A program made the translations under genes and the position numbers. Positions 22,652 through 46,547 of a stretch of 64,000 bases of DNA are shown one piece after another (the first letter of the stretch is position 1; each line of letters starts with the position of its first letter). Source of the stretch: an uncultured Eubacteriales bacterium. GTDB lineage: Bacteria > Bacillota > Clostridia > Christensenellales > CAG-138. The stretch covers positions 1 to 64,000 of the forward strand of contig CADACQ010000012.1 in the NCBI GenBank assembly GCA_902786465.1, in the 5' to 3' direction. A model generated the notes under the pieces. It did not search any database, was not told the origin of the DNA, and worked only from the letters and a program-made list of their open reading frames with translations.

Positions 22652-25309
22652 TTATTTCTCGATGAGGGTGGAGAGCTTGCCCAGCGCCTTCTCGAACTCG
22701 GCGTCGGTGAAGCAGTACTGCATGGTGAGGTGCTCGCTGCGGAGGGCCATGACCTCCTGGCGGATGTCCTTGTTGCGGAGGATGCAGTCCGCCATGAGCT
22801 CGGCCAGCCGGTCGAACTCCGCGTCGCCGAAGCCGAAGCGGGTCATTTCGCTCATGCCCATGCGCAGGGCGCCGGAGGCGGTGAAGCCCTCCTCGTCGGG
22901 GGTGGCCTGGTAGTTGACGATGATGTTGTTCTTCTCCAGGCGCTCCGCGATCTCGGGGCCCTCGCCGTAGCCCACGCCCACGATGACCTGATGGGTCTCC
23001 GTGTAGTCTATGGCGGGGTCGCCCTTCACGTCCAGGCCCTGGGCCTTCAGAGCCTTGGCGAAGTGCTTGGCGTTGTGGATGATGGCCGCCTGGTAGGCGT
23101 CCTTATACTGGTTCATCTCGTAGGCCGCCATGAGGAAGCCCAGCTGGGTGCCCAAATGGTGGTTGGAGACGCTGCCGGGGAAGGCCCGGGTCTCGATGGT
23201 GTTCCAGAGGCCGTACTTCAAGTCCTCCTTGGTCCAGTTGGTGCCGATGACGCCGCGCTGAGGCCCGAAGAAGGTCTTGTGGGTGGAGCCGGTGACGATC
23301 TCCGCGCCCTCCTCGAAGGGCTTCTGGAAGTGGTCGCCGATGAGGCCCAGCACGTGGGCCATGTCGTACATGATGGTGGTGGGGATGCCCTGCTTGTCCA
23401 CGAACTTGCGGATGGCGGCCACAGGCTCCTTATGGAGGACCATGCTCTTGCCGAAGATGATGAGCTCGGGCTTATACTCGGCGATGACCTTCTTGGTCTC
23501 CTCCACGTCGATCTTGAAGATGTTGTCCTTGCAGACGGGGAAGTTCACCACGGCGCTGCGCTCGGTGACCGGGTCCACGGCGATGTAGTCGTGGAGGGCG
23601 CCCATGGGCTGGGCGGACAGGTGGCCGCCCTTGATGATGTGGTTGTTGAGGACGTACCCAAGGCGCTGGGGCGTGTGCTTCCGGTCCAGCCGGTTCTTCC
23701 AGTCCATGAGGGCGGAGAAGACCGCCATGTTGGACATCTGGCCGGAGACCACCCGGGTCTCCACCTCGGTGCAGCCGAAGTACCGGCGCATCTCCTGGAC
23801 AAGGAGCTGCTCCACCCTATCGATGAACTTGGTGCCCTGATAGTAGAACACGTCCGCGTCGTAGAAGGACTTGATCTTCTTATGCTCGGCGTACCGGAAG
23901 GAGGGGTCGCTGGCGGAGAGGAGCTGGACGGCCTTGCTGGGGGTGTTCTCGGAGGGGATCAGGTTGATGCAGCAGTTCTGCCGCCACTCGTGATTGGCGA
24001 TGGCTGCGTAGAGGAGGTCGATGGCCTTCTGGGTGTTGTCGCCGGTGGACTTGGCGTTCTCCTCCACCAGGAGCTTGTCGTACAGGATGGGCCGGGCGAA
24101 GGGGGGCGCGTCCACCCGCATATGGTAGGGAGGGATACCGGCTTTCAGCCGCTTGCCCCGGACGTCCACGGTGACTTCCTCGAAGTCCAGGATGTCGCTG
24201 TCGATGTAGGCCATGCCGATGGACCGCTTGGCGGTGGTATCGAGGATGGCGGTGAAGAGGCCCTCGCCCTCGGCCTGGTAGTAGGGGACCATGGTGCCGG
24301 AGGTGACGAAGCCCACCAGCTTCTCGCCCTTGTAGACGGGCATGCCGGCGCGGATGACGCCGCGATCGAGGAGGGTGATGGGCCGGATGCGGCGGGGCAG
24401 GGCATGAAGAGCCTCGGGGGCGAAGTCACGGTTCAGGATCCGCTTGTTGGCCGCGGCCTGCTCTTCCAGGGGCTTGCGGCCGATATAATCGCCCTTCTTC
24501 TCGGAGAAGGAGACGGCGAACCGGGCCAGGGACACGGCGAAGATGGGCATGGGCTTGCCCTCCGCGTCGAGACCCATCTCGTGGCCGTAGAGGGGCATGC
24601 CAGCTTCGAGGCGCAGGGTGTCGCGAGCGCCCAGGCCCGCGGGCTTGGCGCCCAGCTCCAACAGCCGATCCCACAGCCAGTGGGCGTCCGAACTCTTCAC
24701 GAACACCTCGTAGCCCAGAGGCTCGCCGGTGTAGCCGGTCTTGGCCACCCAGGCTTCGTGGCCCTCCAGAGGCAGCACGCCCAGAGCGTTCTTCATGGGC
24801 TCGGTGACGGCGGCGCCGCCGGAGAGGGTCATGAGCAGGTCACGGCTCTTGGGACCCTGGACGGCGATGGAGGCGTAGTCCGGGGTGATGTTGGTGATCT
24901 TCACGTCGAAGTTCTTGGCGATGGGCAGCAGGTGATCGAGGTCCTTGTCCGTGTTGGCGGCGTTGACCACCAGCAGGTACCAGTCCTCGAAGAACCGGTA
25001 CAGGTACGCGTCGTCCACGGCGCTGCCGTCCTCGGCCGGGATGATGCAGTACTGGGCCTTATCGAGGTCCAGGGCCAGCACGTTGCTGGTCAGTACGTGC
25101 TGCAGGAAGGCCACCGCGTCGGGGCCCTCCACCCGCAGCCGGCCCATGTGGCTCACGTCGAAGAGGCTGCAGCTGTGCCGGGTGAACAGGTGCTCGGCGA
25201 CGATGCCCTCGGGGTACTGGATGGGCATCTCCCAGCCGCCGAAGTCCACCATGGTGGCGCCCGCCTTCACGTGGGCGTCGTAGAGTTGGGTCCGTTTGAG
25301 CTCGCTCAT
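22652..25309 (-). CDS. gcvT-glyA: Fused aminomethyltransferase (GcvT) and serine hydroxymethyltransferase (GlyA)
   Basis: One 885-residue chain carries two one-carbon enzymes. Residues 1-380 are GcvT, which releases ammonia and forms methylene-THF: FGGWEMPIQYPEG, SCSLFDVSHMGRL, RDTLRLEAGMPLYGHE and a C-terminal barrel ending in PPFARP. Residues about 400-885 are an SHMT-type PLP enzyme with NLIPSENTPS, the ARVVSGQM-like VVSGQMSNMAVF, YDMAHVLGLI and the PLP lysine in GSTHKTFFGPQRG. The GlyA half is long (about 490 residues), like the chlamydial type rather than the usual 415. AGGAGGA lies just upstream of ATG 25309. The fusion would hand methylene-THF directly from glycine cleavage to serine synthesis. 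It is the first gene behind the glycine riboswitch. Confidence 0.92.
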   Translation of the reverse strand: MSELKRTQLYDAHVKAGATMVDFGGWEMPIQYPEGIVAEHLFTRHSCSLFDVSHMGRLRVEGPDAVAFLQHVLTSNVLALDLDKAQYCIIPAEDGSAVDDAYLYRFFEDWYLLVVNAANTDKDLDHLLPIAKNFDVKITNITPDYASIAVQGPKSRDLLMTLSGGAAVTEPMKNALGVLPLEGHEAWVAKTGYTGEPLGYEVFVKSSDAHWLWDRLLELGAKPAGLGARDTLRLEAGMPLYGHEMGLDAEGKPMPIFAVSLARFAVSFSEKKGDYIGRKPLEEQAAANKRILNRDFAPEALHALPRRIRPITLLDRGVIRAGMPVYKGEKLVGFVTSGTMVPYYQAEGEGLFTAILDTTAKRSIGMAYIDSDILDFEEVTVDVRGKRLKAGIPPYHMRVDAPPFARPILYDKLLVEENAKSTGDNTQKAIDLLYAAIANHEWRQNCCINLIPSENTPSKAVQLLSASDPSFRYAEHKKIKSFYDADVFYYQGTKFIDRVEQLLVQEMRRYFGCTEVETRVVSGQMSNMAVFSALMDWKNRLDRKHTPQRLGYVLNNHIIKGGHLSAQPMGALHDYIAVDPVTERSAVVNFPVCKDNIFKIDVEETKKVIAEYKPELIIFGKSMVLHKEPVAAIRKFVDKQGIPTTIMYDMAHVLGLIGDHFQKPFEEGAEIVTGSTHKTFFGPQRGVIGTNWTKEDLKYGLWNTIETRAFPGSVSNHHLGTQLGFLMAAYEMNQYKDAYQAAIIHNAKHFAKALKAQGLDVKGDPAIDYTETHQVIVGVGYGEGPEIAERLEKNNIIVNYQATPDEEGFTASGALRMGMSEMTRFGFGDAEFDRLAELMADCILRNKDIRQEVMALRSEHLTMQYCFTDAEFEKALGKLSTLIEK

Positions 25310-25366
25310 GAAATCCTCCTGTTGATTATTTGCGTATATTTCGTGCGCTCCTGCGCGGGGATACAA

Positions 25367-25405
25367 AAAGGCGCATAGCACTCCAAGGAGCACGCTGCGC
25401 CTCCG
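25367..25405 (-). terminator. Riboswitch-controlled intrinsic terminator
   Basis: On the minus strand GGCGCAG-CGTGCTCC pairs with GGAG-TGCTATGCGCC and is followed by TTTTTG. It begins immediately after the second glycine aptamer and lies about 60 bases before the gcvT-glyA start, which is the expected expression platform. Confidence 0.8.
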
Positions 25406-25566
25406 TTCTTTGCCTGAGAGATTCCCGGAGCTGGACCCCGGTTGCACCTTCGGCGTGAGGGAAGACCCCCACTTTCCGGAGCTTCGTCCCGGCCCGATCC
25501 TTTTGCCTGAGAGTTTTTGCGTGTCCCCTTCGGCGCTGCCGTGCGGCAGTCTCTCCCGGGCCGATC
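25400..25566 (-). promoter_or_regulatory. Tandem glycine riboswitch
   Basis: Two glycine aptamers lie in series on the minus strand. The first (about 25566-25496) has CGGGAGAGAC, the GCCGAAGGGG loop and CTCTCAGGCAAAAGGATCGGG. The second (about 25494-25400) has CCGAAGGTGCAACC and ATCTCTCAGGCAAAGAACGGAGG. These are the conserved family signatures. It precedes a terminator and the glycine cleavage operon, so glycine should turn transcription on. A short hairpin with GGCTTCGGAAG upstream may form the leader kink-turn. Confidence 0.96.
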
Positions 25567-32792: not shown

Positions 32793-32821
32793 ATCATATC
32801 ACAGGGAAAGACCCCGGGCAA
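32793..32821 (-). promoter_or_regulatory. Promoter of the M15-type peptidase gene
   Basis: TTGCCC and TATGAT with 17-bp spacing are present on the minus strand. The -35 hexamer lies inside the long palindrome at 32807-32841. The leader would be only a few bases long. Confidence 0.5.
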
Positions 32822-32841
32822 CGAAAGAGCCCGGGGTCTTT
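32807..32841. repeat. 13-bp perfect inverted repeat upstream of the phage cassette
   Basis: AAAGACCCCGGGC (32807-32819) and its complement (32829-32841) form a hairpin with a 9-base loop. It could end transcription, but no gene leads into it from either side, since the flanking genes diverge. It may insulate the cassette or mark an old integration boundary. Confidence 0.7.
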
Positions 32842-32864
32842 GTGATAAATCGGTAAACAGTGAA

Positions 32865-32889: not shown

Positions 32890-32979
32890 CGCCAGACTGA
32901 AATATGAACGAATTATCGGAGGCACGGGCCCCTTTTCTGTTGTATGCTGATTTCGCCGGAAGGGAAAGGAGGCAAGCAC

Positions 32980-33378
32980 GTGAGCAGACGGATGAGCCCA
33001 AAGCGCATGAACGAGGCCGTGGGGGCGTATTTTGCCCGATGCGACGGGACCAGGGAACGGGTCCCGCAAAAGGGAGGCGGGTTCTCAGAGAGACAGACCC
33101 CCTACACCCTCTATGGCCTCTGCGCGGCGGTATCCCTGTCCCCCCAGGAGGTCCTCGCGGCGGCCCATGGCCAGGGCGGCGCGGAAGGGACCATCCTGCT
33201 GCAGGGGCTCATCCGGGTGGCGGCCTACATCCAGGAGAAAGCCCTTTTGGGGGAGCTCAGCGCTACCGTGGCCCAGGCGGCCCTGAAGGAGCTGGGGCTG
33301 ACGGAGGGGCCTGCAGAGGAAGCCATGGAGCCGCTGCAGGTGATCCTGGACGGGGAAGCGGAGGCGTACAGCCGATGA
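32980..33378 (+). CDS. Probable phage terminase small subunit
   Basis: This 132-residue protein lies directly before and overlaps the large terminase gene. Its helical make-up, with a YTLYGLCAAVSLSPQEVLAAA segment (TLYGLCAAVSLSPQ) that looks like a helix-turn-helix recruited for DNA recognition, fits a TerS subunit. Family membership is from position and architecture rather than a clear motif. GTG at 32980 is chosen because AAGGAGG lies seven bases upstream; the ATG at 32944 has none. TerS would bind the packaging site and regulate TerL. It opens the ten-gene head cassette. Confidence 0.65.
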   Translation: MSRRMSPKRMNEAVGAYFARCDGTRERVPQKGGGFSERQTPYTLYGLCAAVSLSPQEVLAAAHGQGGAEGTILLQGLIRVAAYIQEKALLGELSATVAQAALKELGLTEGPAEEAMEPLQVILDGEAEAYSR

Positions 33379-34709
33379 AGACCCTGCGTTTGACGGGCCA
33401 GCCCAATCCCAAGCAGCAGGCCTTCTTCCTCTCCACGGCCCCCCACACCGCCTATGGCGGGGCCCGGGGCGGGGGCAAGAGCTGGGCCATGCGCCGGAAG
33501 CTGGTGCTGCTGGCCCTCCGGTACCCGGGCCTCCAGGAGCTGCTCCTCCGGCGGACGCTGCCAGAGCTCCAGGAGAACCACGTGCGTCCCCTGATGGCGG
33601 AGCTTTCCGGGGCGGTGAAGTACAACCAGACCCAGCGCTGCTTCCTGTTCCCCAACGGGTCCAGGATCAAGCTGGGCTACTGCGACCAGGAGAAGGACGT
33701 GTACCAGTACCAGGGGCAGGAATACGACGTGATCGGCATGGAGGAGGCAACTCACTTCACCGAAAGCCAGATGACCTTTCTCACCACCTGCAACCGGTCC
33801 GTGCGCACGGACTTCTCCCCCCGGATGTACTACACCTGCAACCCCGGCGGCCCCGGCCACGAATGGGTCAAGCGGCTGTTCATCGACCGGCGCTACCACG
33901 ACGGCGAGCGGCCCGAGGACTATGCCTTCATCCCCGCCCGGCTTACGGACAACACGGTGCTCATGGAACGGGACCCGGGGTATCTTCGGACCTTGCAGCG
34001 GCTGCCGGAGCACCTGCGGCGGGCGTATTTGGACGGGGACTGGGACGTGCTCTCGGGCCGGTACTTCCCGGAGTTCTCCCGGCAGCGCCACGTGGTGGAC
34101 CCCTTCCCCCTCCCCGGCTGGTGGCGGCGGTTCCGGGCCATGGACTGGGGCTATCGGGACCCCTGCTGCGTGCTGTGGGTGGCGGTGAGCCCCGAGGGCC
34201 AGCTGGTGGTCTACCGGGAGCTGTACGTCACCGAGACCCTCTCGAGCCAGGTGGCCCGGAAGGTCCGGGAGCTGTCGGCGGGCGAGAAGATCTCCTACAC
34301 CGTGGCCAGCCCCGACGCCTGGCAGCAGCGGGGCCTCCCCGGGGCCGAGGGGGACTGCATCGCGGACGTGTTCGCGAGGAACGGCGTGCCTCTGCTCCCG
34401 GCGGACAACCGCCGCGTCCACGGCTGGCAGCGGCTGCGGGAAGCGCTGGCCCCCCAGGCGGACGGGGCTCCGGGCCTGGTGATCTTCCCCCAGTGCACCG
34501 AGCTCCTTCGGACCCTCCCCCTGCTCACCTACGACGAGCACGACCACGAGGACGTGAGCGACGGGTGTGAAGACCACGCCCCCGAGGCCCTCCGGTACGC
34601 CGTCATGAGCCGCCACCCCAAGGCGGCGGCCCCGGAACGGAAGGCCCCGCCCGCCTACGACCCCTTTGCCCCGCCCCGGACGCAGAACGAGGGGTTCACA
34701 AGCCTATAA
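33375..34709 (+). CDS. Phage terminase large subunit
   Basis: TerL is the motor and nuclease that packages phage DNA into procapsids. The 444-residue protein has the Walker A-like GGARGGGKSWA near 27-37, Walker B YDVIGMEEATHF near 119-130, and the coupling motif YYTCNPGG near 153-160. The nuclease domain starts at AMDWGYRDP near 256-264, with further acidic residues in VASPDAW and DGCEDHAPEALRY. Length and motifs are complete, so the gene is probably functional. ATG 33375 overlaps the TerS stop by four bases. Confidence 0.94.
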   Translation: MKTLRLTGQPNPKQQAFFLSTAPHTAYGGARGGGKSWAMRRKLVLLALRYPGLQELLLRRTLPELQENHVRPLMAELSGAVKYNQTQRCFLFPNGSRIKLGYCDQEKDVYQYQGQEYDVIGMEEATHFTESQMTFLTTCNRSVRTDFSPRMYYTCNPGGPGHEWVKRLFIDRRYHDGERPEDYAFIPARLTDNTVLMERDPGYLRTLQRLPEHLRRAYLDGDWDVLSGRYFPEFSRQRHVVDPFPLPGWWRRFRAMDWGYRDPCCVLWVAVSPEGQLVVYRELYVTETLSSQVARKVRELSAGEKISYTVASPDAWQQRGLPGAEGDCIADVFARNGVPLLPADNRRVHGWQRLREALAPQADGAPGLVIFPQCTELLRTLPLLTYDEHDHEDVSDGCEDHAPEALRYAVMSRHPKAAAPERKAPPAYDPFAPPRTQNEGFTSL

Positions 34710-34729
34710 AGAATGGAAAGGAAGCAACT

Positions 34730-36292
34730 ATGGAGCGAACCAACGACAAGGAAGCGTCCCGGCAGCTGTGCGAACGGGCATACCGGCTTTTCGACGAGTT
34801 CCGCAGCGCCTATCGGCAGGAGTGGCTGCGCCTCGAGAACAACGAACGCATCTACCGGGGGGACCACTGGTACGACGTGCCGGTGACGGACGAAAACGAG
34901 CCCAGGCCCGTGACCCCCATCATCCAGTCCACCGTGGAGAACGTGAGCGCGGATCTCATGGACCAGGCCCCCGAGGCCTACATCCGGCCCGAGGGCGCCG
35001 CCAACAGCTACGTGGCCAAGGTGGTGGAGGCGCTGATCCGCCGGAACCACGACGTGGCCGGGTATACCGTGGAGTACCAGAAGCTGGTCCACGATCTGCT
35101 GGTGGGCGGCTACTGCGTCCAGGAAGTGGGCTACGACCCGTCCCTGAACAACGGCCTCGGCGGCGCGTTCATCCGCCATGTGGACGATCGGAGCATCCTC
35201 TTCGACCCCCTGTGCGACGACATGCAGGAGGGCCGGGCGGTGTTCAAGCTGTCCCTCAGGACCCGGGCATGGTTCAAGGACCGGTTCCCGGAGAAGTATC
35301 TCGAGATGGGCGAGGACCCCTACGCCGCCAGCGACGCCCCGGCGGACGACATCCTCCGCGGCGACCGGCGCGACACCGTGCTGCTCCTCGAGTACTGGTG
35401 GAAGACCCCCACGGAACGGGAAGGCGTGTTCGCCGTCCACATGGCCCTCATCGCCGGAGGCGTGGTGCTGGCCGACAGCCGCGAAACGAAGCCCCAGGGC
35501 TACTTCGCCCACGGCATGTACCCCTTTGTGCTGACCCCGCTGTACATGCGCAAGGGCAGCCCTCTGGGTTTCGGCATCGTGGACCTGTTCGAGAAGCAGC
35601 AGAAGTACGCGGACAAGCTGGACCAGATCGTGTTGAAGAACGCCTTCATGGCCAGCCATAACAAGCTCCTGGTCACCGAGGCCTCGGGCTTCGACGAGGA
35701 GGACTTGAAGGACTGGTCCAAGGAGGTCCACCGGGGCGAGAGCCTCAGCGGCGTCACCTGGTTCTCCACCCCGCCGCTCCCCGCCTACCTGTTGACCTAC
35801 ATCCAGCGCATCCGGGAGGACATCAAAGAGGAGAGCGGCGCCAACGACTCCTCCCGCGGCAACTTCCGCCAGGGAGTCACCGCAGCGAGCGCCATCCAGG
35901 CCCTGCAGGTGGCCAGCACCAAGCGAGCCCGCATGGCCACCGCCCGGCTCTACGAGGCATTTCGGCAGGCGGTGCGCATGGAGATCGAGGTGGAACGGGA
36001 GTTCAACTTCTTCTTTAGGCCCGTCACCGTTCTGGTGAACGGGGAGGAGCGGACGGAATACTTCGACAGCGCCCTGCTGATCCGCATGGACAAGGGGTAC
36101 GAAGGCATGCCCATGGAGTTCCTCATCTCGGTCAAGGCCGCCAAGCAGGACCCGTTCTCGGCATCCGCCCAAAATGAGCTGATTGTACAGCTGCTGCAGG
36201 CAGGGGCCATCGATCCGAAACGGGCCGTGGAGCTGATGACCTTCGAGGGGAAGGACCAGGTGCTCAAGAGCATCAAAGACGACAGTAAATAA
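34730..36292 (+). CDS. Phage portal protein (P22-like)
   Basis: The portal forms the dodecameric ring through which DNA enters and leaves the capsid. The 520-residue protein opens with a helical clip, ENNERIYRGDHWYD, then RPVTPIIQSTVENVSADLMDQAP split at 60-80. A beta-rich wing has VGGYCVQEVGYDP, the stem has MYPFVLTPLYMRKGSP, and a long C-terminal helical crown contains RQGVTAASAIQALQVAST. This is the pattern of P22/podovirus portals. GGAAAGGAAG lies before the ATG. Reading frame is intact. Confidence 0.9.
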   Translation: MERTNDKEASRQLCERAYRLFDEFRSAYRQEWLRLENNERIYRGDHWYDVPVTDENEPRPVTPIIQSTVENVSADLMDQAPEAYIRPEGAANSYVAKVVEALIRRNHDVAGYTVEYQKLVHDLLVGGYCVQEVGYDPSLNNGLGGAFIRHVDDRSILFDPLCDDMQEGRAVFKLSLRTRAWFKDRFPEKYLEMGEDPYAASDAPADDILRGDRRDTVLLLEYWWKTPTEREGVFAVHMALIAGGVVLADSRETKPQGYFAHGMYPFVLTPLYMRKGSPLGFGIVDLFEKQQKYADKLDQIVLKNAFMASHNKLLVTEASGFDEEDLKDWSKEVHRGESLSGVTWFSTPPLPAYLLTYIQRIREDIKEESGANDSSRGNFRQGVTAASAIQALQVASTKRARMATARLYEAFRQAVRMEIEVEREFNFFFRPVTVLVNGEERTEYFDSALLIRMDKGYEGMPMEFLISVKAAKQDPFSASAQNELIVQLLQAGAIDPKRAVELMTFEGKDQVLKSIKDDSK

Positions 36293-36306
36293 GTATGGAG
36301 GAAACC

Positions 36307-36669
36307 ATGAAAGAAACCATGATGGAAGAGAATCCCTACCGCGCCATGGGCGAGGAGATCGCCAAGCTGGAGGCGGAGGGAAAGCTGCCCGAGGGCTTTG
36401 ACCTGGAGGCCGCCTGTGATGACGAGCGGTTCATCGAATTGCTGCACGAGCTGGAGCCCTACGGGGCTATCCGGGTCTACGCCGCCGAGCGGGTGGCCGA
36501 GGCCGCCAAGGAGCAGGCCCTGACGGAGCTGCGCCGGGAAGCCCTGGAGCGGAAGAAGCTTCCCCAGCCCACCCGCGGCAACCAGCTGCTGAGCGCCGAG
36601 GAAGACTACGCCGCCATGAGCCCCGAAGCTTTCCGGGCTCTGGAGAACCGCTTGAGAAACCACGCATAA
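36307..36669 (+). CDS. Small phage head protein, probable scaffold
   Basis: This is a 120-residue, acidic, wholly helical protein (MGEEIAKLEAEGKLPEGFDL, AAERVAEAAKEQALTEL, LSAEEDYAAMSPEAFRAL) between portal and major capsid genes, the usual scaffold position. It is short for a scaffold, and no family motif is seen, so the call rests on position and composition. The ATG at 36307 has GGAGG five bases upstream; an ATG at 36295 lies closer to the portal stop but lacks a ribosome binding site. Confidence 0.5.
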   Translation: MKETMMEENPYRAMGEEIAKLEAEGKLPEGFDLEAACDDERFIELLHELEPYGAIRVYAAERVAEAAKEQALTELRREALERKKLPQPTRGNQLLSAEEDYAAMSPEAFRALENRLRNHA

Positions 36670-36691
36670 GAGAAAAGGAGGACAACGATCC

Positions 36692-37909
36692 ATGGCAATC
36701 AATACCACCGCTTCTACCGCAAGCAACACCTACTTCAACAAGACCTTCTACGACCGCAAGCTCCTGGACACCGCCAAGACCCGGTTCGTCCACGCCAACT
36801 TCGGTCAGAAGCGCTCCATCCCCCGCAACAACGGCAAGCGGGTGGAGTTCCGCAAGTACGACCTGTTCACGCCCAACACGAACCAGCTCACCCTGGTGGA
36901 GGGCGTGACCCCCACGGGCCAGAGCCTGAGCCAGTCCAAGGTGGAGGCCGAGGTCAAGCAGTACGGCGCCTACGTGGAGATCTCCGACCTGCTGGAGATG
37001 ACCGGGTACGACCCCGTCATCGCCGATTCCGCGGAGCTGCTGGGCGAGCAGCTGGGCACGGTCATCGAATGGGTCACCCGAGACGCCATGAACGCCACCA
37101 CCAACGTCCAGTACGCCAACGGCGCCGCCTCCCGGGTGGCTTTGACCGCCAGCGACAAGCTGACCGTAGCGGAAGTGCGTAAGGCCGTCCGGACCCTGAA
37201 GAAGAACAAGGCCCGCCCCTTCGTCTCCAGCATCGACGGCGCGCCCCGCAAGCCCCATTTCGTCTGCATCTGCTCCCCCGACGCCACCTACGATCTGCAG
37301 AGCGATCCCCTCTGGCAGGACGTGTCCAAGTACAGCAACGCGGAGCAGATCTACTCCGGCGAGATCGGCCGCCTGTTCGGCGTGGTCTTCGTGGAAGCCA
37401 CCGAGGCCAAGGTGTACCAGCAGAGCGTTCTCAACGCCGTCAACGCCAACACCACCACCGCCACCACCTTCGTGCTGAAGAACGCGCCCACCGAGCGTGA
37501 GGTGGCTTACCTGTCCACCCCCGGGAACAAGATCATGATCGGCGACACCGAGTACACCCTGTCCAGCAACAACCCCTACGCCGCCGCAACCCGGACCGTG
37601 AAGCTGACCACCACCGTGTCCCTCACCGCCAACACAGCGGTGTTCTCCCGGGACGCCGGCGCGCCCGACGCCACCACCCATGTGGCGCCCGACGTGCACG
37701 CCACGCTGATCTTCGGCGCCGACGCCTACGGCGTAGTGGACGTAGCCGGGTCCGGCGCCATGGAGACCATCATCAAGCCCCGCGGCTCCGCCGGCACCAC
37801 CGATCCTCTCGATCAGCGGTCCACTGTGGGCGCCAAGGTGGCAGCCTATGCGGCCATGGTGCTCAACCCCCTCTGGCTCGTGAAGATCGAGCACTGCGTG
37901 TCCGCGTAA
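36692..37909 (+). CDS. Major capsid protein, N4-gp56 family
   Basis: The 405-residue protein matches the N4-gp56 capsid family, HK97-fold proteins of podoviruses. Blocks include TYFNKTFYDRKLLDTAK, NNGKRVEFRKY, VEGVTPTGQSLSQSKVEAEV, QYGAYVEISDLLEMTGYD and VVFVEATEAKVYQQS. It has an inserted Thr/Ala-rich beta region near 250-320 and ends VLNPLWLVKIEHCVSA. The frame is intact. AAGGAGG precedes the ATG. High expression is expected in a functional phage; codon use is GC-rich like the neighbours, so no recent transfer from a different base composition is visible. Confidence 0.93.
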   Translation: MAINTTASTASNTYFNKTFYDRKLLDTAKTRFVHANFGQKRSIPRNNGKRVEFRKYDLFTPNTNQLTLVEGVTPTGQSLSQSKVEAEVKQYGAYVEISDLLEMTGYDPVIADSAELLGEQLGTVIEWVTRDAMNATTNVQYANGAASRVALTASDKLTVAEVRKAVRTLKKNKARPFVSSIDGAPRKPHFVCICSPDATYDLQSDPLWQDVSKYSNAEQIYSGEIGRLFGVVFVEATEAKVYQQSVLNAVNANTTTATTFVLKNAPTEREVAYLSTPGNKIMIGDTEYTLSSNNPYAAATRTVKLTTTVSLTANTAVFSRDAGAPDATTHVAPDVHATLIFGADAYGVVDVAGSGAMETIIKPRGSAGTTDPLDQRSTVGAKVAAYAAMVLNPLWLVKIEHCVSA

Positions 37910-37931
37910 GGACGGAAAGGAAGGGTGACCT

Positions 37932-38156
37932 ATGGAACACGGGGAAGAGACCATTCGACTGATCTTGCCGGAAGCGGGCAACGGGCCCTACGTGGAGGGC
38001 GCGCTGAACGGCGTGAACTTCCGCATCCCCACCGGGGTGCCCGTGGAGGTGCCGCTGCACATCTACCGGGTGCTGGAGGAGAGCCGCCGGGGCGACCCGG
38101 CCAACGACCAATGGATGAACAGCTTCACCGCGGCCGGCGGCCGAAAGCTGGCGTGA
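37932..38156 (+). CDS. Small phage protein of unknown function
   Basis: I do not recognise this 74-residue protein. It is a compact beta-rich sequence (TIRLILPEAGNGPYVEGALN, FRIPTGVPVEVPLHIYRVL) with a charged tail. Its position after the capsid gene is where decoration or head-completion proteins occur. The frame ends seven bases before the next start, and GGAAAGGAAGGG precedes its ATG. Confidence 0.6.
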   Translation: MEHGEETIRLILPEAGNGPYVEGALNGVNFRIPTGVPVEVPLHIYRVLEESRRGDPANDQWMNSFTAAGGRKLA

Positions 38157-38163
38157 GGTGCCT

Positions 38164-38709
38164 ATGACCGTGCTGCAACTGATGAAATCGACCCTGCGCA
38201 AGCTGGACCGGCCCACGGACAACGATACCGTGACCCTGTACCAGGAACGGCTCATGGGGTATCTCAACGAAGCGCTGCTGGACCTGACGGCAGAGCTGCG
38301 GCCCTGGCGCCGGGACACGGTGACGCTGGCGAACGGGCAGGCGGAGCTCTCCAGCCTTCCCTGCACCTGTCTCAAGGTCATCGCCGCCCGGATCGACGGA
38401 AAGCGCCGTCTGTTCTACTACGGCTCCACCCGGGGCACGCTCCTGTTCCCCGGGGCGGCGGACGAGGCGGTGGAGCTCACCTACCGGTATCAGCCGCCCC
38501 TGCTGACGGAGCTGACGGACGAGCCCCAGCTCCCCGAGGGGCTCCAGGGGCTGATGGTGGAGTACGCCGCCGCCCGGGAACGGAGTCGATTCGACGCCGC
38601 CTCCCAGAACGCCGCCCGGCTGGATCTCACGCTGTATCGGGAGCTGAAGGGGAAGCTTCGGCGGAACTATCCGGCTCCGGATCAGTCCCAGATCTACCAC
38701 ATCTACTGA
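38164..38709 (+). CDS. Probable head-to-tail adaptor (P22 gp4-like)
   Basis: This protein of 181 residues is helical, with MTVLQLMKSTLRKLDRP at the start. A GYLNEALLDLTAEL helix, a central beta hairpin that contains ARIDGKRRLFYYG, and EGLQGLMVEYAAARERSR toward the end follow. Size, order and helical pattern suit the adaptor ring that binds the portal (P22 gp4 or the equivalent family). GAGG five bases before ATG 38164 supports this start over the GTG at 38158. No similarity beyond the general pattern can be claimed. Confidence 0.6.
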   Translation: MTVLQLMKSTLRKLDRPTDNDTVTLYQERLMGYLNEALLDLTAELRPWRRDTVTLANGQAELSSLPCTCLKVIAARIDGKRRLFYYGSTRGTLLFPGAADEAVELTYRYQPPLLTELTDEPQLPEGLQGLMVEYAAARERSRFDAASQNAARLDLTLYRELKGKLRRNYPAPDQSQIYHIY

Positions 38710-38722
38710 GGAGGAAAGAGCT

Positions 38723-40156
38723 ATGGCATTGCAGACCATCCGCTTCGGCAGCTTTGCCGGGGTGAAGCAGGGCGTATCCACCGGCGGCATCCCCCTCAAC
38801 TGGGCGGAGAACGCCCAGAACGTGAACACGGCCGGCGGGAAGCTGGATCGGGCCAAGGGCTATCGGGCCATCTATCCCTCGGTGACGGGGGCGGCCCGGA
38901 AGCTGAGGCGGCTGTTCATCTGGCCCCGGGAGTCGGGGCAAACGGACTGCCTGGTGGCTCGCCAGGACTCCCTCTTTCGCTACGACCCCACCGAGGAGGC
39001 CTGGGAGGACCTGTATCACTATACGGGCGACATGAACGCGGACACCTTCGACTTTTTGAAGACGAAGATCGGCAGCACCGAGACCCTGCTCATCGGCAAC
39101 GGCCTCGAACCCATCCTCAAATGGGTGGGCGGCAGTTCGCCCATCGCCGCCTTCGGCTCCGCCCAGGGCCTGTCCGACAAGGCGGTGAACTTCCTGGAGC
39201 TGTACTTCGGCCGTCTGTTCGCCGCCGGGGATCGGGAGCATCCCGCCCGGCTCTACTGGAGCCAGGCCCCCGGCGACGGGCGCACCATCGAGGACTGGTC
39301 CGCCGATGAAAGCAGCGAGAACGTGTCCGGCGGCCACGTGGAGGTGGGGACCGATTCGGACCCCATCACGGGCCTCTTCGCCCTGTCGAACCAGCTCTTG
39401 ATCTTCAAGAAGGACAAGCTGTATCGGCTGCTGGGGGATCGGCCCGGGAACTATCGGATCGTGCCCGTGGAGGCGGCCCTCGCGCAGCCCATCCACACGG
39501 CCTGCGTTCTCTACGGGGACCGGCTTTTCTTCCTGACGGACAAGGGCCTCTACTTCTACGACGGCCAGACCGTGCGCCGGACCGCCCACGGGGCGGACCT
39601 GGTGCCCCTCCTCCAACAGGTGGACTTCTCCGCCGCGGCCTCCGCCGCCTGCGGGGACACCCTCTACTTCGCTGTGAAGGAGCATGCGACCAGCGTCCAC
39701 AACGATCTGCTCATTGAGTACGACGTGCTTCGGGACTGCTTCCTGCTCCGGCGGGGGTTCGAGACCGTGGACCTGACCAGCTGCTACGGCACCCTGTACG
39801 TGCTGACGGGCCGGGGGGAGGTGGCCGTCCTCAACGAGGGGGACACCTACGGTGGGGACCCCATCGCCGCCTTCTGGGAGACCCCCTGGCTGGACGGGGC
39901 CTCGGCCCTCACCATCAAGCAGGCCGTGGAAGCGGTGCTCACGGGCACCGGCGGGCCCTTGAAGGTCCTGGCCCTGGGGGAAGCCCGGGAGGGGGACAGC
40001 GTGGGCACGCTCCTGGGCGAAGGGACGCCCACGGAGTTCCTGCTCCGCAGCGTGGGCCGACGGCTGAAGCTTCGGATCGAGAACGTGAACGGCAGCGACT
40101 TCGACCTCTCCGGCGGGGCGGAGCTGCTGTTCGATGAGCAGCGACGGGTGTTGTAA
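38723..40156 (+). CDS. Probable neck/stopper propeller protein (P22 gp10-like)
   Basis: The 477-residue protein is beta-rich with repeated blade-like units: LFRYDPTEEAWEDLYHYTG, LLIGNGLEPILKWVGG, ALSNQLLIFKKDKLYRLLGD, LTDKGLYFYDGQTVRRTAHG and CYGTLYVLTGRGEVAVLNEG. It begins with MALQTIRFGSFAGVKQG and SWAENAQNVNTAGGKLDR-like IPLNWAENAQNVN, as in podovirus DNA-stabilisation proteins that plug the portal after packaging. The assignment follows position and fold. TGAGGAGG lies before the ATG and overlaps the previous stop. Confidence 0.65.
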   Translation: MALQTIRFGSFAGVKQGVSTGGIPLNWAENAQNVNTAGGKLDRAKGYRAIYPSVTGAARKLRRLFIWPRESGQTDCLVARQDSLFRYDPTEEAWEDLYHYTGDMNADTFDFLKTKIGSTETLLIGNGLEPILKWVGGSSPIAAFGSAQGLSDKAVNFLELYFGRLFAAGDREHPARLYWSQAPGDGRTIEDWSADESSENVSGGHVEVGTDSDPITGLFALSNQLLIFKKDKLYRLLGDRPGNYRIVPVEAALAQPIHTACVLYGDRLFFLTDKGLYFYDGQTVRRTAHGADLVPLLQQVDFSAAASAACGDTLYFAVKEHATSVHNDLLIEYDVLRDCFLLRRGFETVDLTSCYGTLYVLTGRGEVAVLNEGDTYGGDPIAAFWETPWLDGASALTIKQAVEAVLTGTGGPLKVLALGEAREGDSVGTLLGEGTPTEFLLRSVGRRLKLRIENVNGSDFDLSGGAELLFDEQRRVL

Positions 40157-40220
40157 AGCGCCCAGGGTCATGCCCGAGGGCGTCTCTGCGGAGGCGTCCC
40201 CGGGCGGAAAGGAGAGAACG

Positions 40221-40406
40221 ATGTCTTACGAAGCGACGGGGCTCATGGCCCTGTTCCCGGTGTATCTGGAGCGCATGGGCCACGAGGAGGACCAGGAGGC
40301 CGTCAACAGCCGCATCGCCCAGAACGAGAACAATCTGAACCAGGATCTTTCGATCCTGTACAACAAGCTCCTGGAGCTGGAAGCGGCTCTGGCGGCAAGA
40401 GAATAG
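40221..40406 (+). CDS. Small coiled-coil phage protein
   Basis: This is a 61-residue protein (MSYEATGLMALFPVYLERM, then NSRIAQNENNLNQDLSILYN and ELEAALAARE). Its C-terminal half is a heptad-like coiled coil. In P22-type gene order the tail needle (gp26), a trimeric coiled coil, sits here, but this product is far shorter. GGAAAGGAGA precedes ATG 40221. Function unknown. Confidence 0.55.
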   Translation: MSYEATGLMALFPVYLERMGHEEDQEAVNSRIAQNENNLNQDLSILYNKLLELEAALAARE

Positions 40407-40416
40407 TGAGGTAAAC

Positions 40417-41172
40417 ATGAGCGAACAGGATAAATACTACAGCAACCAGGCCTTCGAGACCATCTACGAGAAGGCCAAAAAGGACTACGCGCCCCAGCTG
40501 GTCACCTATACGCCCCTGGACGAGCAGACGCTGGCGGAGCGCATCAGCGCGGTGCTGCGGCCCCTGTATGATAAGGCTATCGCCGCCATCTTCCGGGGGA
40601 ACCAACGCCAGGACGCGGAGCTGGACGCCGACGCCATCTCCCGGGGCATGGGCAGCAGCACCTTCGTGACCGACGTGAAGCGGCGGCAGGACAACGCCGC
40701 GGCGGACGACGTGCGGGAGCTGGAGAGCGACTACGGCGCGAAGCTGGCCGATCAGCTCTACAAGGCCATGGAGGGCGAGCGGGATCGTATGCTGGAGGTG
40801 GAGAAGTTCAACGCCCAGCAACGGAACGCAGCCATGGAGCAGGCCTTCGCGGCAGCCAAGTATCTTTATCAGGCGTATCTGGAAGCCAAGGCCGCCCAGG
40901 GGTACGGCGGCGGCAGCGGCTCCGGCGGCAAGAAGGAGGAACGGCTCACCGAAGCCCAGGTGAAGAACTCCCTGGCCCAGGCGGTGGCGGCCGCCCGGGG
41001 ACAGGTCACCACCAACCCCAACGGCGCCGCCTTCTACGCCAAGGGCGACCACGAGACGGCGAGCCGGGTGACCAACAGCGACCTGCCCAAGTACGTGAAG
41101 AAACGGGCCCAAATGAACGGAGATTACTCCGCAAATCAGCTCAAACAGTTCCGGCTGATGAACCTGAAATAG
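40417..41172 (+). CDS. Phage virion protein, helical, possibly ejection-type
   Basis: The last gene of the cassette codes for 251 residues: a helical N-terminal domain (1-165), a Gly/Ser hinge (GYGGGSGSGGKKEE) and a short C-terminal domain (AQVKNSLAQAVAAARGQ, YAKGDHETASRVTNSDLPKY). In P22-like order this would be an ejection protein, and Ala-rich amphipathic helices fit. No family motif is seen. GAGGT lies before the ATG. The frame is intact, and no further phage gene follows. Confidence 0.5.
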   Translation: MSEQDKYYSNQAFETIYEKAKKDYAPQLVTYTPLDEQTLAERISAVLRPLYDKAIAAIFRGNQRQDAELDADAISRGMGSSTFVTDVKRRQDNAAADDVRELESDYGAKLADQLYKAMEGERDRMLEVEKFNAQQRNAAMEQAFAAAKYLYQAYLEAKAAQGYGGGSGSGGKKEERLTEAQVKNSLAQAVAAARGQVTTNPNGAAFYAKGDHETASRVTNSDLPKYVKKRAQMNGDYSANQLKQFRLMNLK

Positions 41173-45280: not shown

Positions 45281-46514
45281 TCAACAGGATTCAGTCATGA
45301 TGTCCAGGATCTCCCGGTCCGTGTCGCGCATGCCCTCCCGGGCCATGCGGCCCACGGTGCGGATGGTGTTGTCCACGCCCTTCTTCACGATGCCCTCGCC
45401 GGAGTAGAACTGGTTCTTGCCGTGGGTGTACATCTCGTACCCCATGAGCCCGGCCTCCACGGCCATGGCGATCTTCCCGGCGCAGGAGGGCTTGGCCCCG
45501 TCGCAGACCATGCCGGAGAGAATGGCCAGGGTGTTCACGATGGTGTGGGCGATGACCTCGTACCCGTCCCCATGGAGGTACGCGATGCCCGCCGCCGCCC
45601 CGCAGCCCGCGCTGACAGCGCCGCAGAAGGCGGAAAGCCGCCCGATGCTGGTCTTCTGATGGATGGTGACCAGGTTCGACACCACCAGGGCCCGAAGGAG
45701 CTTTTCCCGGCCCACCTTCAATTCCTTCGCGTACTCGATGACGGGGAGGCTGGCCGTCATGCCCTGGTTCCCGCTGCCGGAGACGATGACCACCGGCATC
45801 TCGCAGCCGCTCATGGGCCTCGAGCAGGGTCTGGCCGATGCGGGCGCCCCAGCTATGGGTGAGCCCCTCCTGGGAGATGGCGGTGTTGTAGGCGATCTGT
45901 CGCTCCAGCACCACCTCCACGTCGAACAGGTCCACGCGGTCCGCGAAGTCGATGATCCGCTCCACGCTCAAAAGATCGTATTCCGGCTCCTCCTCGGCCT
46001 CCTCCGCCCCGCAGGCCCCCTCCAAAGCGAAGAGGCAGGCCCCGTTCTTCTCGATGCGGGTGATGTTGGTGTGGAGATCCTCGATGACCACCCGAGCACT
46101 GTCGGCCCCGGCCCAAACGGTGACGGCGATATAGAACACCTTGTCCCCGGGGTAGGGCACCACCTCGATGGGGTGGCTGTCCCGGTAGGCGCGGATGGCC
46201 TCCCGGTCCTTTTCGGCCACGTGGGAGATCACCTGCAGCTGCACGTTCGGGTCCCCTGCCACCAGCCCCGCGGCCGCCGCGGCCTCGATGCCCCTGAGAT
46301 ACCCGGTGTTGGGCACCACCACGCTCTTCACGTTCTTGATGATGTTCCCGCTGCACTCCACCCGGCACCGTTCCGGCAGGGCCCCCAGGGCCTGGCGGGC
46401 CTTGGCTGCCCCGTAAGCGATGGCGATGGGCTCCGTACAGCCCGTGGCGGGGATCAGCTCCGCCTCCAGGATACGAATATACGCCGAATAGGCAGGATCG
46501 GTCCGATCGAACAT
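45281..46514 (-). pseudogene. UPF0597/L-cysteine desulfidase family gene with internal deletion and frameshift
   Basis: The family uses an Fe-S cluster to act on L-serine or L-cysteine-like substrates. The first 233 or so codons (ATG 46514, AAGGAGG upstream) are intact, including EAELIPATGCTEPIAIAYG, ECSGNIIKNVKSV and GLTHSWGARIGQTLLEA. At 45814-45815 the frame changes to MSGCEMPVVIVSGSGNQGM and continues through MVCDGAKPSCAGKI to the stop at 45281. From memory of the family, the segment preceding SGCEMPVV (usually ending in AAASDARM) is missing, perhaps some 25-40 codons. As written, neither half forms a complete enzyme. The original function, L-cysteine or L-serine breakdown, is inferred. 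Confidence 0.82.
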
Positions 46515-46547
46515 AGCGACCTCCTTACGCTTCACCACATGAAACAG

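Follow-up and report, generated by a model that had tools for sequence, protein, structure and literature searches.

The window analysed here, namely the whole 64,000-nt stretch of contig CADACQ010000012.1 from an uncultured Eubacteriales bacterium (G000:C12:1-64000), carries at 32980-41172 a cassette of ten intact open reading frames (ORFs) extending over 8.2 kb, and we consider this cassette to be probably the locus for head, neck and nozzle in a gene transfer agent (GTA), descended from a P22-like temperate podophage, owned by its host and distributed over at least four loci. An earlier note on this DNA had described ten intact genes in the order of P22 head and neck genes at this place, and the ORF list of the window together with family matches bore this description out. 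Among the functions considered in that note, GTA-like packaging has gained support from the family-wide presence of the genes, the purifying selection acting on them, the invariant residues of TerL and the dispersed lysis loci sharing one promoter with the cassette.

Retention, selection and a common promoter element

The capsid gene was found in 92 of the 103 family genomes, covering 23 of the 26 genera and 44 of the 50 good genomes, and the portal gene in 88 (44 of the good ones); UvrA, used as a core-gene control, was found in 95 and in all 50 good ones. A single capsid match was obtained in 89 of the 92 carriers, and G008, G049 and G075 gave more. An even sample of the order had the capsid in 59 of 395 genomes, 39 of the 59 lying within the family, and a sample of the class had it in 43 of 393. 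Judging from their titles, the best 80 of 261 named relatives were mostly metagenome-assembled genomes (MAGs) of rumen, gut and other anaerobic Clostridia, and some were labelled Christensenella or Christensenellaceae. In several other genera, TerL-portal and (scaffold-)capsid are located on separate contigs.

Within the genus (10-11 genomes), each of the ten genes had a median ratio of nonsynonymous to synonymous substitution rates (dN/dS) within 0.17-0.40, the codons compared contained no stop, and four flanking host genes gave 0.085-0.418 (5-9 genomes); by this codon comparison, all ten cassette genes are under purifying selection, as the earlier note had supposed. The Walker A motif, the Walker B glutamates and the three nuclease aspartates of TerL, which we take to have their usual roles in this alignment, are kept in 20 of 20 aligned family sequences. 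The 477-aa (amino acid) protein, which had been read as a propeller stopper in a cassette without tail, gave a confident model (predicted local distance difference test, pLDDT, 91.6) whose fold matches the tail nozzles of Pa223, VP1, P22 (gp10) and T7 (gp12). Because it folds as podovirus tail nozzles do, the cassette is predicted to encode a short tail, and the model thus indicates a short-tailed particle.

Alignment of upstream regions revealed that TerS and a lone endolysin gene have an element in common, whose consensus is TGAACNNATNATMGKA-N22-TATSCT and whose copy at 32905-32948 is the one match in the window, none (0.00) being expected by chance. When spacing was left free (gap 16-28) in a search over the collected loci, there were 32 matches at 18 distinct sites, and every gap was 22. 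All 12 genomes of the genus have the element, at 46 sites when up to 2 mismatches are allowed, and a reversed-pattern control gave 0. By tblastn, 39 of the 46 sites could be assigned: 11 to TerS, 8 to the endolysin, 11 to a holin-like pair and 9 (one by a partial match) to DUF6291-type genes. Two of the other seven were inspected, one preceding a D5-type primase and one matching no query protein, and five were not inspected. At eight of the nine DUF6291 sites, TACCAT or TACACT replaces TATGCT as the -10 sequence. In the own genome of the window, the cassette, endolysin, holin-pair and DUF6291 sites lie on four contigs. The absence of lysis and control genes claimed in the earlier note therefore holds beside the cassette and fails for the genome, where the element is common to the endolysin and the holin-like pair on other contigs. 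We identified no regulator gene for the promoter-linked loci.

In another group, five loci have a ATTCCGGGA-like element exactly 22 bp before TATGCT upstream of TerS, and this pattern occurs nowhere else in 4.6 Mb of collected sequence (gap 14-30 allowed); the pattern was derived from the same five loci, and what can be learned from it is limited to its spacing and its absence elsewhere. A ATTCCGGGA-like element was missing from several of the other TerS upstream regions that we compared, and a pairwise search for a common upstream block in other genera gave nothing clear, the method being weak and the gene starts being those of the longest ORFs.

The lysis gene of the source genome is an NlpC/P60 gene at G000:C1:71957-72697, found with the endolysin profile and having no signal peptide evident by eye; strong matches of this profile (E<1e-28) occur in 9 of the 12 genus genomes and weaker NlpC-type matches in all 12, and the eight endolysin loci compared have the same neighbours. 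The holin-like pair consists of a 107-aa membrane-type protein and a 93-aa protein, the latter a putative holin-like protein on the basis of its size, membrane character, neighbours and shared cluster; a Pfam scan of the pair gave no holin match. In G042 the holin locus starts with a 389-aa fibre gene, and the start of this fibre matches the family fibre profile. In several other genera, a BppU_N-type fibre, an endolysin (NlpC/P60 and/or peptidoglycan-binding) and holins adjoin the capsid genes, and elsewhere, according to locus clustering, fibre, endolysin and holin form a separate small locus (e.g., L095). Matches to BppU_N were found in 32 of the 103 family genomes and matches to the PF05105 holin in 29, in part at places other than the cassette; therefore, these Pfam models miss many such genes, or the genes differ.

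DUF6291-type genes with a GTA-type promoter were observed at L440:7372-8109, L449, L451-L456 and L432, the contigs concerned being G000:C28, G047:C69, G039:C6 and C37, G041:C18, G044:C11, G045:C2 (twice) and G048:C211. In L452, a G39P-type helicase-loader gene comes after the DUF6291-type gene. At L458:5586-7973 (G038:C101), the element, here with 1 mismatch, lies before a 170-aa gene and the D5-type primase, which looks as though a mobile element were using the GTA promoter of its host.

The ten genes and their setting

The features of the cassette and its upstream region are as follows, with the evidence for each in parentheses.

32805..32860, + strand: terminator-like hairpin and T-rich stretch, upstream of the promoter (by eye from the sequence and an alignment of nine genus members)
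32905..32948, + strand: shared promoter element TGAACGAATTATCGGA-N22-TATGCT, putative activator site and -10 (alignment, pattern searches)
32980..33378, + strand: small terminase TerS, GTG start, 132 aa (PF16677 GP3_package, 3.1e-7; longer ORF from 32944)
33375..34709, + strand: large terminase TerL, 444 aa (PF03237, phrog_979)
34730..36292, + strand: portal protein, 520 aa (PF16510 P22_portal, 1.4e-22)
36295..36669, + strand: small helical protein, 124 aa, probably the scaffold (lies between portal and capsid; no family match)
36692..37909, + strand: major capsid protein, 405 aa (PF13252, 1.2e-10; phrog_1357, 8.2e-70)
37932..38156, + strand: small protein, 74 aa (phrog_15239, 0.0014; conserved cluster)
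38158..38709, + strand: head-tail adaptor, 183 aa (PF24175 SU10_adaptor, 2.8e-11)
38723..40156, + strand: predicted short-tail nozzle (beta-propeller), 477 aa (phrog_3287, virion structural; model and fold matches as above)
40221..40406, + strand: small coiled-coil-like protein, 61 aa (ORF 40134-40406; belongs to a conserved cluster found in 30 loci, 56-90 aa)
40417..41172, + strand: helical protein, 251 aa (conserved cluster; all-helical model)

Pfam and PHROGs family matches were obtained for TerS, TerL, portal, capsid, adaptor and the 477-aa protein, and the other four are without clear family. Sequence and genus alignment place the TerS start at the GTG at 32980, preceded by AAAGGAGG, and the best start of the ninth gene, read from the sequence, is the ATG at 40221. 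The 124-aa protein is probably a scaffold, since it lies between portal and capsid, and its profile picks up proteins of 261-281 aa in sister phage contigs. For the 61-aa protein, tail plug or needle is our guess. The structure prediction proposed in the earlier note, which resolved the nozzle, left the 251-aa protein without a fold match at E<=0.001; it is probably an internal/ejection or tail-tip protein. PF01471 (PG_binding_1, peptidoglycan-binding), which some relatives from other genera have at the N end of this last protein, was found in 6 of 8 scanned relatives at E<=0.01, 3 of them above its cut-off, six of the eight having been picked for their look; the 251-aa protein of the window gave no match in the PF01471 scan.

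The source assembly (2.0 Mb, 58 contigs) is 70.8% complete. The cassette is directly flanked by an M15 peptidase gene (PF13539) and mreB, the latter named from its sequence, in agreement with the earlier note. This position is not general in relatives: among 40 relatives' stretches of 1-20 kb, both flanks were found in one (L043) and M15 alone in three more. The note had also spoken of broken host genes in the window, and one was seen, a serine dehydratase alpha chain gene (PF03313; around 45281-46538, - strand) lying in two frames, which is either a broken host gene or an assembly error. A separate observation in the window is a single 931-aa ORF at 22655-25447 (- strand), in which a glycine cleavage T-protein (GCV_T) is fused to a serine hydroxymethyltransferase-like domain.

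Several further loci are recorded here. L239 is an 8557-bp contig filed as viral in IMG/VR that has the capsid of the window at 100% identity and nine of the ten genes matched, and it is either a host fragment filed as a virus or packaged DNA. L167 and L168 are short contigs in MAGs labelled Atopobiaceae/Eggerthellaceae with the capsid at 66% identity, for which binning contamination is a guess. L319-L327, in the Clostridia families f39 and f51, are short cassettes with a full-length capsid and the small protein, and also the nozzle in the f39 loci, near which the profiles used recognised neither TerL nor portal; these cassettes are possible further GTA-like systems.

Descent of the cassette and rival explanations

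Inheritance of the cassette looks mostly vertical, with exceptions. In the capsid tree, which is midpoint-rooted and has a support of 0.31 at its base, the genera with at least two labelled members mostly form clades. Co-descent was judged by comparing the capsid with UvrA only, in the 51 genomes having both proteins: all 8 multi-member genera were monophyletic for UvrA and 7 of the 8 for the capsid, the two trees share 17 of 48 splits, and the distance correlation over all genomes was 0.43, a value not reached in any of 2000 permutations. When genus means were used in a test from which g7 and g11 had been excluded after being seen as outliers, the 20 remaining genera gave an r of 0.60, and none of 2000 permutations was as high.

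The following observations weigh against our interpretation. With g7 and g11 kept, the genus-mean correlation was 0.16 over 22 genera, and 366 of 2000 permutations were as high; furthermore, of 28 capsid splits with good support, 11 disagree with the UvrA tree. Metagenomic phage contigs and a second G049 capsid copy nest in the family capsid clade (node support 0.86 and 0.93), and it is therefore likely that genes were exchanged with phages or that domestication happened more than once. The capsid is missing from 6 of the 50 good family genomes, and 13 portal matches were flagged with an internal stop, which in the window is the natural stop at the end of the profile. The endolysin promoter site is present in 8 of the 12 genus genomes; G045, although 97% complete, lacks it and gives no strong match to the endolysin. 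The fibre was found in 1 of the 12. Finally, the system is known from its genes, and no particle, packaged DNA or transfer has been observed.

One rival is a host-owned, PBSX-like particle that kills relatives, or one that only lyses its producer, in which DNA would be packaged and not productively delivered. PBSX is long-tailed, which separates it from the short-tailed particle predicted here, and the intact adaptor and nozzle, as well as the peptidoglycan-binding domain on the last protein of some relatives, fit delivery. The scarcity of a recognisable fibre in the genus leaves receptor binding unclear and speaks for this rival, and the same possibility has been raised for FpGTA in PMC12946183. 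Weighing these points, we regard such a particle as unlikely, though worth keeping in mind.

A degenerating prophage, recently cut down from a full podophage, is improbable. It would be favoured by the metagenomic sister phage contigs, which carry the same genes, by the nesting of phage contigs in the capsid clade, and by the few relatives with decayed genes, namely a portal in different frames (G030, G099 and G101) or a truncated nozzle. The decay or absence of genes in relatives that the earlier note had named as a counter-sign is thus seen in a minority, even when the six good genomes without capsid are included. Against this explanation, the same genes are kept across most of the 26 genera with one match in nearly all carriers, they are under purifying selection with no stops, and their co-promoted lysis genes lie at separate loci; the fresh deletion or very recent loss suggested in the note is contradicted by this family-wide retention. 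Between M15 and mreB, the ORF list and domain scan showed no integration, control or replication genes such as a P22-like prophage has, and the PF03237 (TerL family) search of the own assembly (71% complete) gave one match, so that an intact prophage containing the block, the other counter-sign, was not found there.

One phage relative is L259, a metagenomic contig of a P22-like temperate podophage (39.7 kb, 20.9 kb examined) with the same order TerS-TerL-portal-scaffold-capsid-small protein-adaptor-nozzle, after which come a fibre and an NlpC/P60 endolysin. It differs in keeping an integrase, a helix-turn-helix (HTH) repressor and ArdC, and in having a longer portal, scaffold and nozzle. Median lengths in family loci versus sister contigs were 151 versus 270 aa for the scaffold, 542 versus 630 for the portal and 475 versus 577 for the nozzle, in a comparison with eight chosen sister contigs that counted related loci as independent and left L064, L065, L066, L068 and L081 out of the family set; the shorter proteins hint at a smaller head, which they would suit, and prove nothing. 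All 60 capsid matches in the phage database were under 60% identity. Two candidate marks of a GTA were set aside: an insert in the capsid, because phage contigs carry it too, and the carbon content per residue, because GC content confounds it. The latter was below that of sister phage contigs in all 7 proteins compared; the difference reached p<0.05 for three of them (portal, TerL and small protein) and p 0.0500 for the adaptor. A bias of GTA proteins to cheap amino acids is described in PMC9662315.

Satellites of the cf-PICI type carry an integrase and their own replication module alongside capsid genes. That the cassette is a capsid-forming satellite of this kind relying on a helper phage, an option of the earlier note, is very improbable: its head genes do lack an obvious local fibre, and one promoter site (G038) precedes a D5-type primase, but the cassette ORFs include neither integrase nor replication gene (the search did not extend to attachment sites or excision), the parts are dispersed over several contigs, and the family has retained them. 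A domesticated capsid compartment with no role in DNA packaging can practically be dismissed, since the TerL motor and nuclease residues are invariant and purifying selection acts on portal, adaptor and nozzle as well, even though the capsid has the highest identities across the family among the ten proteins.

Comparison with known systems and meaning for the family

Kogay et al. 2022 (PMC9662315) give six features of GTAs: particle proteins derived from tailed phages; packaging of mostly random host DNA; full endogenization, often in several loci; inability to package the whole own genome; mostly vertical inheritance; and delivery of DNA to other cells. Three of the six are found here, one with exceptions: family and fold matches indicate particle proteins from tailed phages, the sites on four contigs indicate endogenization in several loci, and co-diversification with hosts is seen for 20 of 22 genera and is lost with g7 and g11 kept. 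The other three are experimental properties. On the strength of these three features we call the system GTA-like, and by its sequence features it is most likely a GTA. The GTA assumed here would work as follows. A trans-acting activator would turn on the cassette, endolysin, holin and DUF6291 loci together in some cells; TerS and TerL would package short pieces of host DNA via the portal into small capsids, which adaptor and nozzle would close; holin and endolysin would lyse the producer cell; and the particles would then attach to sister cells and deliver their DNA.

The nearest known system is FpGTA of Faecalibacterium (Nat Commun 2026). According to PMC12946183, it has a ten-ORF head operon with TerS, TerL, portal, scaffold and capsid, and a second operon with fibre or receptor-binding protein, holin and endolysin, and it forms 40-nm capsids containing 8.4-8.9 kb of random host DNA. 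The cassette resembles it in the ten-ORF operon with the order TerS-TerL-portal-scaffold-capsid, in proteins of short-tailed-phage type, in a Gram-positive gut anaerobe as host and in being without replication genes; it differs in host lineage, judged by contig names, and in length (10.5 kb for FpGTA, 8.2 kb here). The present system further differs in that a single promoter element links its loci, of which there are at least four, and in that holin and endolysin lie apart in the genus: the counterpart of the second FpGTA operon is split into two loci in this genus and lies together in several other genera. By its anatomy, the present system may work like FpGTA as the latter is described. The class-level capsid clades f39/f51 were considered as a candidate for FpGTA, but neither TerL nor portal could be recognised in the vicinity of the f39 capsids. 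The alphaproteobacterial GTAs, RcGTA among them, as covered in PMC9662315, are likewise vertically inherited with genes scattered over several loci, but their host phylum is unrelated, RcGTA has a 49 nm tail, and their activity is proven. Relative to the known systems, with FpGTA taken by its description, the host lineage, the number of loci and the promoter-defined regulon are new.

In PMC12946183, GTA-like packaging is also reported for Christensenellaceae (3 of 25 events), the genes being identified only in Faecalibacterium, and among the papers listed by searches of the open-licence PubMed Central literature, preprints aside, it is the only one that treats such packaging in this bacterial group. 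We lean somewhat, and with less assurance than for the cassette itself, toward the wider view that an ancient GTA has been kept by this entire family within the Clostridia, which is partly labelled Christensenellaceae at NCBI; the scattered particle, lysis, fibre and DUF6291 genes of this GTA would be switched on together, as one regulon, by a dedicated promoter that depends on an activator and whose element would differ from genus to genus with the 22-bp spacing fixed, and the GTA may supply the genes behind the packaged Christensenellaceae DNA in human stool. If this is true, the readable promoter of such a short-tailed system, spread over several loci and across the family, would offer a sequence handle on the rest of the regulon and on its activator, and the genes responsible for the capsid-packaged host DNA of gut Christensenellaceae would have a concrete candidate in the cassette.

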